A stretch of DNA of 64,000 bases from Sphingobacteriaceae bacterium. Its GTDB lineage: Bacteria; Bacteroidota; Bacteroidia; Sphingobacteriales; Sphingobacteriaceae. The position numbers and the translations under genes are program-made. The notes beneath the pieces were generated by a model. The model was not told where the DNA came from and ran no database searches. It worked only from the letters and a program-made list of their open reading frames with translations. Below, piece after piece: positions 58,573-63,327 of the stretch (the stretch's first letter is position 1; the number at the start of each line of letters is the position of its first letter). The DNA lies in assembly GCA_017745075.1 (NCBI GenBank), contig JAGIAD010000004.1, positions 62,001 to 126,000 on the forward strand. The letters run 5' to 3'.

Positions 58573-59880
58573 TTACTCTGTCTGATATCTGGTAAGCTTT
58601 CTGATCTGGTAAAAAAATCTTTCTATTAGTCTTAAATCCTGCGTTACGATTTCGGCATTACCTTTAAGCTCTTTATCAAAGGGAAGTATTTTGTGATAAG
58701 AGGTTTTCAGCCCTTTCGGAAGCGATACATCTATATAATAATTGCCCTTATCGTCAGGAGTAAAAGATATGTTTTGAACTTTACCCTCTACAATACCATA
58801 TTCCTGATAACGGTAATTATCCAGTTTGATTAAAACTTTTTCTCCTTTGGCAATTTTGCCCGAATTGGTGGCTGCTACAAACATTCTCCCAATCAGCGCC
58901 TGGGTATCATCGGGTAAAATAGATAATATAGGATCTCCCCGTTTTACAAACTGGTTTTCGCCCCAGAACTGCTGAAAACTGGCCACACCATCGGTAGAGG
59001 AAATAACCAGGTAGTTTTGTTCCCAGGCTCTTAACGAACGCCTCAACTGCTCTAATAGCTGCAGAGTTTGCGAAGCAAAGTTGATTTTGTCTTTCTCTGC
59101 ATTTATGGTTGTTCCACTTTTGGTTTTATTGAGGTTATAAATCATCTCCTCAGTTTGCGCTAGTGAGATATCTATATTTTCTAAATTTTGTTGTGCCTGC
59201 AGGAATTTAATTTTCTCATTTTCAAACTCAGCGGTTGAAATGGCTTTTTGATTAAGAAGTTGCTGGGCACGCTGATAATTTTTCCTGACCAGCTCATATT
59301 TCTCCAGCTCGAATGCTTTTTGACGTTTTAGGGTTGCTATTCTGCTTTTATTTGCGGATATATTCTGAACAGTGGCTATATTTTCCGGTGCATAGGGTTT
59401 AAGTCTGGTAAACAGCTTTTCATCCTGAAATGCCTTGGCAAAATTATTGTAATCGCCCTGCAGTTCTCCTAATTTAAAGCCCGAAACTTTATCTACGGGA
59501 AATGAAACCAATTGATTGGTAGAAATAGAATCTATTATTTGCTTAAGCTGCAAAACGTCTTTGTAATTTGCAGTGGATTGCAAAACCATTAATAGCTGAC
59601 CCTTTTTTACCTTTTGATGGTCGGTAATCAATATTTTTTCAATTCTGGAATCCGTTCTGATCTCTAGTTTTTCTGGCGGATTTTGTGAAGTAACGATGAT
59701 GGTTGCGGGTACAAACTCCGGGTATTTAATGAAATAACTCATCAATAAGATCATTAAAAGGATGGTCAGGATAATCACACTACCCCAGCGGAACATCCAG
59801 TGAGGTGGTTCCGATAGAATATCCTGCACACCTTCCGAGCGCAGTTGTACCTCGTCTAGTTTATCTTTTTTAGTTTCCAA
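58573..59880 (-). CDS. HlyD-family membrane fusion protein of the RiPP exporter
   Basis: A 435-residue periplasmic adaptor. A cytoplasmic N-terminus is followed by one membrane segment (about 33-51), a split biotinyl/lipoyl-type domain (start near LEIRTDSRIEKILITDHQKV), a long coiled coil (about 140-270, for example NYQRAQQLLNQKAISTAEFE) and a beta-barrel region ending in KGNYYIDVSLPKGLKTSY. It should link the ABC exporter to an outer-membrane channel. Its start overlaps the ABC transporter gene by 11 bp; it is the last gene of the operon. Confidence 0.88.
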   Translation of the reverse strand: METKKDKLDEVQLRSEGVQDILSEPPHWMFRWGSVIILTILLMILLMSYFIKYPEFVPATIIVTSQNPPEKLEIRTDSRIEKILITDHQKVKKGQLLMVLQSTANYKDVLQLKQIIDSISTNQLVSFPVDKVSGFKLGELQGDYNNFAKAFQDEKLFTRLKPYAPENIATVQNISANKSRIATLKRQKAFELEKYELVRKNYQRAQQLLNQKAISTAEFENEKIKFLQAQQNLENIDISLAQTEEMIYNLNKTKSGTTINAEKDKINFASQTLQLLEQLRRSLRAWEQNYLVISSTDGVASFQQFWGENQFVKRGDPILSILPDDTQALIGRMFVAATNSGKIAKGEKVLIKLDNYRYQEYGIVEGKVQNISFTPDDKGNYYIDVSLPKGLKTSYHKILPFDKELKGNAEIVTQDLRLIERFFYQIRKLTRYQTE

Positions 59881-62068
59881 GTTCGAGCTGGTTTTTGATT
59901 AATCTGTAATACTCTCCTTTTTTAGCTACTAATTCATTATGGTCGCCCTCTTCAACAACCATTCCTTTATCCAGCACGATAATTTTATCAGCATGTTTAA
60001 CGGTCGATAATCTATGGGCAATCACTATGGCGGTTTTACCTTTAAAAAACTGCTCCAGGTTTTCGATAATTATCTTTTCGTTATTGGCATCCAGTGCACT
60101 TGTAGCCTCATCGAAAAAAATATACTCGGGCGATTTGTACACAGCACGTGCAATGAACAATCTCTGCTTTTGTCCACCGCTGACGCCCATACCTTCGTTA
60201 CCAATTTTGGTGTTGTAGCTTAAAGGCAGGCTTTCTATAAAATCCTGTATGTTAGCAATTTCTATGGCTTTTCTCAGCTTTTGTTTATCAATCGCATCTT
60301 CACCTATGGCGATATTATTGGCAATAGTATCGTTAAACACATAACTCTCCTGCATTACCACTCCGCAATGGTCTCGCCAATACCTTGGCGAAATATTTTT
60401 CATATCTGTATTTCCGATTTTTATTTCCCCTTTATCGGGTTCGTAAAATTTGGTCAGCAGCTTTAAAAGCGTTGTTTTTCCGCTACCGCTCGCCCCAACT
60501 ATAGCTGTGGTTTTTTGAAAGGGGATTACAAGGTTTAAATCCTGAAAAACAAACGAATCAGCCCCTGTATACCTGAACGATACAGACTTTAATTCAATGT
60601 CTTTCTGCGCAATTTCGGCAGCGTACTGTTCTTCGCTGCCTTCTTCGTTGTCTTTATCGTGTATTTCCTGTAACCTTTCGAGCGAAATTCTGGCATCCTG
60701 TGATTGTTTAATAAAATCTATGAGCTGCAACAAAGGGCTGTTTAGCTGGCCAATGATATATTGTACTGAAAGCATCATGCCCAGCGTAAGGTTACCACTC
60801 AAAACCAGTTTTGCGGCAAGGAAACTCACCAGGATATCTTTTATCTGGTTAATAAAACCACCACCCACAGATTGCCACTGCTCTAAAGAGAGTGCCTTTA
60901 TTTTTATCTTAAATAACTTTACCTGTAAAAATTCCCATCCCCAGCGCTTCTGCTTTTCGGCATTATGCATTTTTATTTCCTGCATGCCATTAATCAGTTC
61001 GATCACCGTGCTTTGCTCTTGTGCAACCTGAGCAAACATTTTATAATCGAGTTCTTTTCTTCTTTTAAGGAAAAAAACAATCCAGCCCGCATATAAGAGT
61101 GCGCCCAGCAGGTATACGATAAACAACCGGTAATCGTAAATAAGAAGTATAATGCTAAAAATAAGCAGGTTTACCATCGAGAAGAGGGTGTTGAGCGAGG
61201 AGCCGGTCAGCAATTGTTCTATCCGGTGGTGATCACTTATCCGCTGCATAATATCACCGGTCATCCGTGTATCAAAGAAACTAATTGGAAGTTTCATCAG
61301 TTTGATAAAAAAGTCGGAAATGATTGAAATGTTAATCCGGGTAGAAAGGTGTAGCAAGATCCAGCTCCTAATCATTTCAATGCCCATTTTACCCATAAAA
61401 AGCATCACCTGGGCCAGCAAAACCAGGTAAATAAAGTTAATGTCCTGGTTTTGTATGCCTACATCAACAATACTTTGGGTAAGGAAGGGGAAAATAAGCG
61501 ATAATAAACTTCCGGCCAGTAAGCCAATGACCAGTTGTATAAACAGCGATTTATATTTTAGCAGATACCTGGAGAGGAAAGTGAAGCTTGTTTTCTTTTC
61601 TGTTTCCTGGAAATCACTGTTGTAAAATGCAGGGCTTGTTTCTAAAATAAGGGCAATACCTTCTTCTGTATTTTCGTGGGCATTTTCGCCGATCCAGTAT
61701 TTTATAAATTCAGTTTTGGTATAGGTAATTAAGCCATAACCCGGGTCTGAAACATAAACCTTACCGGCTTTGTCAATTTTATAAACCACAACATAGTGGT
61801 TTTTATTCCAATGTACTATGCAGGGTAATGGTGCATCGGCCAGCAGGGTATTAAAATTTATTTTAACACCTAATGTTCTGAAGCCTAAAGCCTCTGCTGC
61901 ATTGCTAAGGCCAAGCAACCCGCTTCCTTCTCTGGTGGTTTCGGCGAGGGTTCTGATTTGGGGCAACGGAATGCTTTTATTATAGTGTTTTGCTATAATG
62001 CGCAGGCAGGTAGGGCCACAATCCTTATTGTCGGGTTGTTTATAAAATGGAAATTTTTTAAGCTTCAT
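59870..62068 (-). CDS. C39-peptidase ABC exporter (PCAT) for a modified peptide
   Basis: A 732-residue bifunctional protein. The N-terminal C39 peptidase (1-145) has C17 (NKDCGPTC), H91 (NHYVVVY) and D108 (VSDPGYG). A six-helix membrane domain spans about 165-455. The nucleotide-binding domain has Walker A GASGSGKT (525-532), signature VSGGQKQR (629-636) and Walker B YIFFDEAT (649-656). PCATs cut leader peptides after a double-Gly motif during export. All catalytic residues are intact. It starts 6 bp after the SPASM gene stop and overlaps the HlyD gene, so it serves the RiPP cluster. Confidence 0.94.
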   Translation of the reverse strand: MKLKKFPFYKQPDNKDCGPTCLRIIAKHYNKSIPLPQIRTLAETTREGSGLLGLSNAAEALGFRTLGVKINFNTLLADAPLPCIVHWNKNHYVVVYKIDKAGKVYVSDPGYGLITYTKTEFIKYWIGENAHENTEEGIALILETSPAFYNSDFQETEKKTSFTFLSRYLLKYKSLFIQLVIGLLAGSLLSLIFPFLTQSIVDVGIQNQDINFIYLVLLAQVMLFMGKMGIEMIRSWILLHLSTRINISIISDFFIKLMKLPISFFDTRMTGDIMQRISDHHRIEQLLTGSSLNTLFSMVNLLIFSIILLIYDYRLFIVYLLGALLYAGWIVFFLKRRKELDYKMFAQVAQEQSTVIELINGMQEIKMHNAEKQKRWGWEFLQVKLFKIKIKALSLEQWQSVGGGFINQIKDILVSFLAAKLVLSGNLTLGMMLSVQYIIGQLNSPLLQLIDFIKQSQDARISLERLQEIHDKDNEEGSEEQYAAEIAQKDIELKSVSFRYTGADSFVFQDLNLVIPFQKTTAIVGASGSGKTTLLKLLTKFYEPDKGEIKIGNTDMKNISPRYWRDHCGVVMQESYVFNDTIANNIAIGEDAIDKQKLRKAIEIANIQDFIESLPLSYNTKIGNEGMGVSGGQKQRLFIARAVYKSPEYIFFDEATSALDANNEKIIIENLEQFFKGKTAIVIAHRLSTVKHADKIIVLDKGMVVEEGDHNELVAKKGEYYRLIKNQLELGN

Positions 62069-62074
62069 GTGCCT

Positions 62075-63151
62075 TTACCTTTGTTGCATGCTGTAATGTT
62101 GTATTGCTTTTTGTTTAAGCGGGTTTGTACTCCATTCTTCCCATTTATTGGTAGAAGGGTCGTAGCCACATTTTAGTGGTTTGGATATATCTAAACCTGC
62201 ATGGTTGGTATGGGTACGCTCTGTAAATGCCCTGCAATCGGTACATACATTTCTAAACTCACAGTGCTTGCAAACCATAATGTCATCTTTGGTGATGTTC
62301 CAGTAAGCCTTAAACTCTTTAACGTTTAGTGCATCTTCTAAAGAAATGTCATTTATGTTCCCGAAAATCCGGGGCATTGCCGGGCAGTTTTTGATATTGC
62401 CATTTATATCAATACCTATTTTTTTATTAAGGCAGGAATTATGATTAATAGCTTCCAAAACCTTCAAAATATTGGTATCAAAGTACTTTAAGTCTACTTT
62501 TCCGCAAGAATTGATTTTTAAATGCTGACTGGTAAAAACCAAGTTAAATTTGAAAATATCTGCAACCTCAAACGGAGCTTTTTCGCATTGATGAAATATC
62601 AAACTATAAATTCTTATGCACTTTTCATTTAGGGCTTTTATAAAGTCATCATCAACTCCTGAATGATATGGAGAGAAAATCTCTATGCTTTCTAAACGTG
62701 AGTCGTTTAATGTATCCTCTAAGGTCAAAAAAGCTGTTAAAGAAAGTTCACTTTCACAATAGATTACCAAATGTCTTATCCCTAAATTTTCTATAGATTG
62801 CACCAGTCGTGGCGACAGCAATAAATCAGTAGTTTCCATAAATAAATTGGAAATTGTGCTGGCATCGCTAAATTCGAGGGATAGTGGTGGGAAATTTTTA
62901 TCCCAATCATTCTCAGTAATAAAACCGTACTCTTTTTCCACTAAAAAGTTTAGGTATTCTTGTACTATGTCTTTTGATTCTTCATCATAAAAAGCAAATA
63001 CTTCTTCAATAGAATTGGACTTCAACTCTTCAATAATCGTATTCAATTCTAAAGGCTGTAGCTCAGAACGGTTTCGTTGTAAATCAGAAATCAGGATCCT
63101 GTTAAGACCTGTTGTGATCAAAATATCGCTAAATAAATTAAAATACCTCAT
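62075..63151 (-). CDS. gwsS: Grasp-with-spasm SPASM-domain peptide maturase
   Basis: A 358-residue protein. The C-terminal third is a seven-Cys SPASM domain: C240, C256 (GNIKNCP), C294, C297, C303, C306 (CKHCEFRNVCTDC) and C328. The upstream part (1-235) is barrel-like in layout but contains no CxxxCxxC radical-SAM motif; its cysteines (132, 178, 189, 216) are scattered. This fits the SPASM partner of grasp-with-spasm RiPP systems. It may bind Fe-S clusters and help shape or deliver the precursor; catalysis is uncertain. Its ATG overlaps the TGA of the small gene upstream (ATGA), and the exporter gene follows after 6 bp. Confidence 0.85.
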   Translation of the reverse strand: MRYFNLFSDILITTGLNRILISDLQRNRSELQPLELNTIIEELKSNSIEEVFAFYDEESKDIVQEYLNFLVEKEYGFITENDWDKNFPPLSLEFSDASTISNLFMETTDLLLSPRLVQSIENLGIRHLVIYCESELSLTAFLTLEDTLNDSRLESIEIFSPYHSGVDDDFIKALNEKCIRIYSLIFHQCEKAPFEVADIFKFNLVFTSQHLKINSCGKVDLKYFDTNILKVLEAINHNSCLNKKIGIDINGNIKNCPAMPRIFGNINDISLEDALNVKEFKAYWNITKDDIMVCKHCEFRNVCTDCRAFTERTHTNHAGLDISKPLKCGYDPSTNKWEEWSTNPLKQKAIQHYSMQQR

Positions 63152-63327
63152 AACAATCTGCTAATTGGCTTATAGGGTTTTACAAGCATAAGAAAGTTTG
63201 TTTTATAGGACTTGCATGTGCCATATAGCACATCCTTACTTTTTTGATTGATTTTTTTACCCCTGTATTCATCAACAAATTTGAAGGTTAGCGGTAATTT
63301 ATTTTTTTCTTCGATCTGGTATCTCAT
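63148..63327 (-). CDS. Small protein (59 residues) between the ATP-grasp and SPASM genes
   Basis: An intact 59-residue frame from an ATG at 63325-63327 to a TGA at 63148-63150. The ATG overlaps the stop of the ATP-grasp gene (ATGA) and the TGA overlaps the start of the SPASM gene (ATGA), so it is very likely translated by coupling. The protein starts MRYQIEEKNKLPLTFKFVDE, is strongly basic in the middle (RGKKINQKSK), has one Cys at residue 38 and ends VKPYKPISRLL. There is no double-Gly leader motif, signal peptide or membrane segment, so it does not look like an ordinary RiPP precursor. I do not recognise a family. It may be a recognition or chaperone factor for the two maturases. Confidence 0.72.
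   Translation of the reverse strand: MRYQIEEKNKLPLTFKFVDEYRGKKINQKSKDVLYGTCKSYKTNFLMLVKPYKPISRLL

Follow-up and report, generated by a model that had tools for sequence, protein, structure and literature searches.

The current study establishes that the 59-codon frame between the ATP-grasp ligase gene gwsG and the SPASM-protein gene gwsS is a gene under selection, that its counterparts form a single family which, in the sample, is associated with GwsS, and that the radical-SAM motif is missing from GwsS. The gene is real, its family (LPL) is known yet uncharacterised, and the protein may be the piece that ties two proteins together. The preferred reading, to which a probability of about 0.5 is assigned, is that it would act as a flexible docking peptide that links GwsG, the ligase, with GwsS, the recognition protein.

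The window (the whole stretch of DNA analysed, 64,000 nucleotides) contains the following features of the operon.

63148..63327, minus strand: LPL-family gene, 59 aa (MRYQIEEKNKLPLTFKFVDEY...YKPISRLL); open reading frame, ATGA overlaps, conservation, dN/dS
63324..63327, minus strand: ATGA overlap of gwsG stop and LPL start; seen in the sequence
63148..63151, minus strand: ATGA overlap of LPL stop (TGA) and gwsS start (ATG); seen in the sequence
63289..63297, minus strand: N-terminal LPL motif, residues 11-13; P aligned in 102/114 non-gap rows, conserved in A1
63160..63174, minus strand: C-terminal YKPIS motif, residues 52-56; KPIS in 39/113 gap frames, K in 97/115 rows
62075..63151, minus strand: gwsS, SPASM-domain protein of 358 aa that lacks the radical-SAM CxxxCxxC; TIGR04193, 388.6 bits
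62927..63142, minus strand: putative RRE-like N-terminal domain of GwsS, residues 4-75; low-confidence AF2 model and VIA-align
62258..62431, minus strand: SPASM iron-sulfur domain of GwsS, residues 241-298; PF13186
63324..64000, minus strand: gwsG, ATP-grasp ligase, running off the end of the window; 263.8 bits to TIGR04192 for the portion inside
59870..62068, minus strand: peptidase/ABC exporter adjoining gwsS, probably of C39 type; bacteriocin-export ABC families, below curated cut-offs

The first-pass annotation had described a 59-codon frame with an ATGA overlap at both ends, whose product is basic, has one Cys and lacks a double-Gly leader, and the sequence bears this out (K+R = 14, D+E = 5, Cys = 1, no GG). 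In the genome contig the complete gwsG encodes 300 aa (L002:4825-5727) and scores 336.7 bits against TIGR04192; GwsG and GwsS both exceed the curated cut-offs of their profiles. On the same strand, 5' of gwsG, are two short reading frames (79 and 80 aa) whose leaders are of the GG type.

According to the parts of the source covered here, the LPL family was named in 2022 (Biol Direct) for 116 proteins of graspetide branch 5, which invariably sit immediately 5' of the SPASM gene and have no GG (PMC8939145). The window protein has LPL at residues 11-13, no GG and a 4-nt overlap upstream of a TIGR04193 gene, and the ATP-grasp protein adjoining it, beside that gene, is over the TIGR04192 cut-off, which for branch 5 is a profile match and not a tree placement. 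Compared by its published description, the family appears to fit the window protein. The expectation in the first-pass annotation that such a partner would be new did not hold, since the description of 2022 means that the discovery of the gene as such is not new.

The small gene and its family

Taken singly, the window makes the open frame only mildly unlikely by chance: in gaps resampled with the same neighbour-base frequencies, a run of at least 52 open codons starting at most 10 nt beyond the gwsG stop arose in 394 of 20,000 cases (about 2%). The overlaps alone are therefore insufficient as proof, and conservation settles the question. The first-pass annotation, which had argued that two overlaps by chance are unlikely, was right that the gene is real, as conservation and dN/dS indicate.

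A similar frame of 59–65 residues was found at the same place in all nine of the first GwsS relatives (three Pedobacter, five Chryseobacterium and one Sphingobacterium), with the consensus KLPLTFKY... and ...KPYKxLxRLL. The dN/dS of the window frame against three close relatives (L003, L076, L081), calculated by the Nei-Gojobori method and rough because the gene is short, was 0.07–0.09. Over the ten pairs of the five-member close-relative group that includes the window frame it was 0.07–0.32, which is below 1, as had been asked of a true gene. GwsS and GwsG gave values in a range like that of LPL wherever dS was computable. In a second, Sphingobacterium-like group, dN/dS was about 0.04–0.32 in 25 of 28 LPL pairs, the remainder being one near-identical pair (0.52) and two pairs with saturated dS. 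A chance open frame is ruled out by the conservation and dN/dS, and judged by these the frame is real and protein-coding.

Two overlapping draws, of 399 family and 395 class genomes, supplied the GwsS loci, which comprised the TIGR04193 matches over the cut-off, 20 chosen below it and the nine first relatives. Of the 121 different GwsS that scored 60 or more against the profile, 113 had GwsG no more than 500 bases upstream. Translation of these gaps (113–453 bases, median 188), which the first-pass annotation had proposed, revealed a conserved small frame, with one intact frame of 52–87 residues per gap in 112 of the 113 (that of L156 was selected by eye). The sole gap without an intact frame belongs to L148, where GwsG itself is in two pieces; GwsG is also in two pieces at L137, and the gap frame there has no N-terminal patch. 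Together with dN/dS below 1, these counts run against the absence of a conserved frame, or the accumulation of frameshifts, that had been named as evidence against a gene, and uphold the earlier view of a conserved gene beside two maturases that is not an obvious precursor.

Eight GwsS fall outside the 113-gap count: the first L099 copy and L179, which both run off their stretch, two L132 fragments, and L124, L125, L129 and L130. The last four were read singly, and each has an LPL frame; L124 and L125 are without GwsG, only a remnant of GwsG is left at L129, and at L130 a gene has been inserted. In ten further loci from a phylum search, an LPL-type frame, judged by eye, was present upstream of all 11 GwsS genes. 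An 11-member profile, which misses divergent members and with which at most 16 candidates were scored per genome, matched 18 of the 399 family genomes, 17 of them at GwsS loci; the eighteenth match was weak (E 0.007) and contains stops. Double ATGA coupling as in the window is not general: an overlap of 4 or 1 nt with the gwsG end was seen for 30 of the 113 frames, and one of 4 or 1 nt with the gwsS start for 40. The LPL protein, probably a small accessory subunit, is found in nearly every Bacteroidota grasp-with-spasm operon examined.

Two Elizabethkingia anophelis plasmids also carry gwsG-LPL-gwsS, with the LPL frame intact (L240:3828-4004 and L241:3828-4004). For both of them the PLSDB gene table, which is stated to be incomplete, lists gwsG and gwsS and no gene in the 169-base gap. 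If a 59-residue gene missed by annotation is required, heterologous expression from the annotated genes would fail for that reason. A tandem pair of gwsG-LPL-gwsS sets, with quite different LPL proteins, was observed in Pedobacter petrophilus (L004).

Mean column identity among 62 LPL representatives was 15%, and conservation was mostly confined to two short patches, an N-terminal L-P-L/V/I patch (P in 102/114 rows) and a C-terminal [YFH]-K-P-[IL]-[ST]-[KR] patch (K in 97/115 and S in 79/110 rows). KPIS occurred in 39 of the 113 gap frames; shuffling gave 0.3 on average and 4 at most, and among 4872 control frames 7 had it. A loose C-terminal pattern was missed by 24 of the 113. When whole GwsS clusters were held out (62 clusters at 45% identity), the gap frame ranked first in 102 of 111 loci and third or better in 110, out of a median of 208 frames at each locus; two of the nine gap frames not ranked first share one locus with two LPL genes. 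A broad profile gave 118 gap frames among 119 matches and is circular, having been trained on those frames, so that the one-family claim rests on the leave-cluster-out test. By this ranking the gap frames look like one family, and the small proteins at the gwsG-gwsS position that were called 'unrelated' (PMC8939145) are probably divergent LPL members with a YKPIS-type end.

The window LPL protein had no Pfam or NCBIfam match, and the 62 representatives gave only scattered single-member weak matches to these collections (best E 0.0086). A search with the 62 LPL sequences returned no solved relatives at E 1. Tryptophan hydroxylase, seen in two weak rows (E 0.16 and 1.4), was rejected as a solved relative and taken as a chance match. 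The LPL monomer model was of low confidence (mean pLDDT 47.4) and not folded, but it was built from only 11 sequences, which makes a 'disordered' reading weak.

GwsS, leader peptides and loci that lack a partner

Neither CxxxCxxC nor CX2-7CX2C was detected in the first 220 residues of any of 116 GwsS. The SPASM cysteines are common, with C294 and C297 present in 109/116. The AF2 model of GwsS was weak (mean pLDDT 54.6) and begins with three strands followed by three helices. Its top Foldseek rows, one match among them having E <0.001, were 5wgg and 5why (sactipeptide thioether-enzyme entries, presumably CteB) and SuiB 5v1q, all of which we take to be RRE/radical-SAM/SPASM enzymes. In VIA-align the best row was TbiB1 with leader (5v1u), over GwsS residues 4-75, with 71 of 84 aligned at 2.8 Å and Z 6.3, a score under the level that VIA-align calls safe and one that can reflect a common arrangement. 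Lower rows over the same residues were TigE and heterocyclase (4v1v, 4v1u). These entries, like TbiB1, presumably carry RREs, and the presence of several of them on one stretch makes an RRE reading of the GwsS N-terminus more believable. No RRE family was among the Pfam matches of GwsS. Judging from the model, GwsS may have its own RRE-like N-terminal domain. Natural LPL-GwsS fusions were not seen among the inspected GwsS frames with N-terminal extensions.

Thirteen ATP-grasp loci without GwsS, hand-picked from below-cut-off TIGR04192 matches, served as controls, and none had an LPL-like frame directly following the ligase. The broad profile gave three matches there (E 0.82–0.85), in no case immediately 3' of the ligase and on the same strand. 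A GG-type small frame was present upstream at 78 of 116 gws loci (duplicates kept) versus 0 of 13 controls. A clear PF(F/L/V)xxFLE-type small protein was found at 5/13 controls; a looser PF pattern matched at 7/13, two of these being doubtful. The same loose pattern matched at 14/116 gws loci, where the twelve matches examined look like chance frames, the L104 gap frame being one of these twelve. The remaining 8/13 controls were without a clear cis leader motif. Across the sampled loci there is hardly any overlap between the cis leader motif and the LPL/GwsS pair.

LPL and GwsS also occur together where GwsG is absent. At G363 and G348 (L223 / L224) they precede a LanB-type dehydratase, with no GwsG in the locus and no obvious precursor nearby; the LanB assignment is by PF04738 and PF14028 on the G348 copy, the G363 copy being alike by eye. 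TIGR04192 had no match in the whole G348 genome and one weak match, on another contig, in G363. The small frame of these loci keeps YKPLS and has no LPL patch, with dN 0.065 and dS 0.35 between the two genomes. Twelve rows without the aligned N-terminal P come from loci that have GwsG, so loss of the patch in a LanB locus may mean little. At G067 (L225:11112-11549, minus strand), an LPL protein that has both patches is joined to the first ~91 GwsG positions; there is no ligase domain, and the next genes are LanC, LanB and exporter-like ones. The GwsS of this locus is by eye without some SPASM cysteines, which suggests that the locus may be degenerating.

A further locus, at G056:C31, has GwsG and an LPL frame, beyond which the contig stops. 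At G683 LPL lies after GwsG, and a lipoprotein-like gene stands between LPL and GwsS. Lipoprotein-like genes in this position (L130:3519-4436, L225:10310-11071) had no Pfam match at E 0.01.

LPL distances followed those of both GwsG and GwsS, those of GwsG somewhat more (partial r 0.58 vs 0.16), and GwsG exceeded GwsS in all 300 bootstraps. With rank statistics the difference shrank over all pairs (0.24 vs 0.19) but held for close pairs (0.45 vs -0.08). A protein that is found with GwsS and evolves with GwsG fits a bridge between the two. A split with the N-terminal patch for GwsG and the C-terminal patch for GwsS was not supported by the co-variation, in which the YKPIS end follows GwsG no less closely.

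A docking role and its alternatives

In the proposed mechanism, GwsS (an RRE-like domain, a radical-SAM-like barrel without cluster motif, and SPASM) would bind the leader of the GG-type precursor. The conserved N-terminal LPL and C-terminal YKPIS patches would hold GwsG and GwsS together, each patch presumably meeting one partner, so that the LPL protein would deliver GwsG to the GwsS-bound precursor. It would thereby replace the PFFxxFL-type motif that microviridin-type precursors carry in cis in their leader, and which is apparently absent here. The docking model draws on the near-universal frame, its single family, selection like that on the enzymes and the specificity for GwsS. It draws further on the GG-leader contrast, retention beside GwsS without GwsG, the G067 fusion, the RRE-like GwsS and distances that track both proteins. 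Several observations count against it, namely the low-confidence LPL and GwsS models, the Z of 6.3, the lack of a patch split in co-variation, the P missing in 12 rows, the 24/113 frames without the C-terminal pattern, and the 8/13 controls without a leader motif. The few loci that lack GwsG, moreover, amount to two similar genomes and one locus with degenerate parts.

The most direct competitor was put forward with the family itself: a PqqD-like chaperone role was suggested in the parts of PMC8939145 covered here, in which LPL would be a discrete leader-binding element presenting the precursor to the SPASM protein. It is usually directly upstream of gwsS, it is away from GwsS only at one contig end and in one weak match, and it is kept with GwsS where GwsG is absent. 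This role is nevertheless considered rather unlikely. If the RRE-like reading of GwsS holds, GwsS itself already recognises the leader and this is less needed from LPL; GwsS is also without the radical-SAM motif. None of 62 diverse LPL members matched RRE/PqqD families at E 0.1 in Pfam or NCBIfam, and conservation lies in two short patches of a protein whose model is not folded, although each of these points is weak as an exclusion. The same source, as far as covered, also suggested a possible ATP-grasp contact, since LPL resembles the leader motif Phhx(1,2)h (PMC8939145). An LPL patch could then fill the leader site of the ligase and switch GwsG on in trans, GwsS not being a partner. Such a motif in a small protein at 5/13 SPASM-less controls (the matches at gws loci look like chance) and the closer tracking of GwsG favour this possibility, which is held to be improbable, as LPL is kept beside GwsS at G348, whose genome has no TIGR04192 match, and was not found at the 13 ATP-grasp loci without GwsS.

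That the small, basic protein is itself an additional precursor is quite improbable. It lies within a RiPP operon and has a conserved Lys and Ser/Thr near the C-terminus, but GG occurs in only 2/113 gap frames, there is one frame per gap, the gene is under purifying selection with a conserved and not variable C-terminus, and GG-type precursors are present upstream. Equally doubtful is an inhibitor or immunity protein of the maturases or the product, for which a small coupled gene without an enzyme signature would be suitable; its usual place is between two maturases and not by the exporter, and it is kept beside GwsS in LanB operons of other chemistry, neither of which is a direct test. The ATGA overlaps on both sides could also suggest a translation-coupling spacer without protein function, which is scarcely credible with dN/dS of 0.07–0.32 over ten pairs and residues conserved across 62 GwsS clusters. 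Among the recognition, scaffold and inhibitor roles that the first-pass annotation had listed, the data, which are those of sequence comparison, lean to a scaffold or docking role.

The docking reading has a bolder and tentative extension. LPL and GwsS may form a portable substrate-recognition module that is separate from the chemistry, in which a cluster-less radical-SAM relative reads the GG-leader via an RRE and the 59-residue docking peptide plugs in an ATP-grasp ligase or, in some lineages, a LanB dehydratase. If this is true, a leader function has been split off into a gene of its own. Among the open-access papers that the literature searches listed, no title or abstract opening describes an experiment on an LPL protein, and the paper parts covered report no characterised product from a SPASM-type graspetide locus. 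One shared small protein and a GwsS without the radical-SAM motif point to a direct minimal experiment.

Comparison with known systems

PqqD and discrete RRE proteins are likewise encoded by a small gene beside that of a SPASM protein. LPL differs from them in having no RRE match and two short conserved patches, the RRE-like fold being found in the GwsS model instead. Loci of the microviridin/chryseoviridin type (CdnC, MdnC) have a related ligase, CdnC being the closest solved relative of GwsG (7mgv, E 1.1e-16). The 13 related ATP-grasp loci without GwsS differ in that no LPL-like frame lies 3' of the ligase, and 5/13 have a cis PF(F/L/V)xxFLE-type small protein.

According to the parts of its description covered, MirC, the partner of the rosaritide synthetase MirB, is similarly needed with a graspetide synthetase and copurifies with it (PMC13097080). 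It differs in having at least 315 residues and a SurA-like domain and in belonging to another graspetide group; the two are likened by description and not by sequence (PMC13097080).

The closest counterpart is the LPL family as published, with which the window protein shares its small size, the LPL motif, the lack of GG, the position upstream of a TIGR04193 gene, the occurrence in Bacteroidota and a grasp-with-spasm ATP-grasp neighbour. In the parts of that account covered here, other small proteins at the same position are called unrelated, whereas in the current study the proteins sharing the position act as one family with a YKPIS-type end, and a figure legend terms the SPASM maturase a radical SAM enzyme, whereas CxxxCxxC was absent in 116 GwsS (PMC8939145). 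The present results extend the published description by the one-family evidence, the missing radical-SAM motif in GwsS, and the loci in which LPL and GwsS occur without GwsG.
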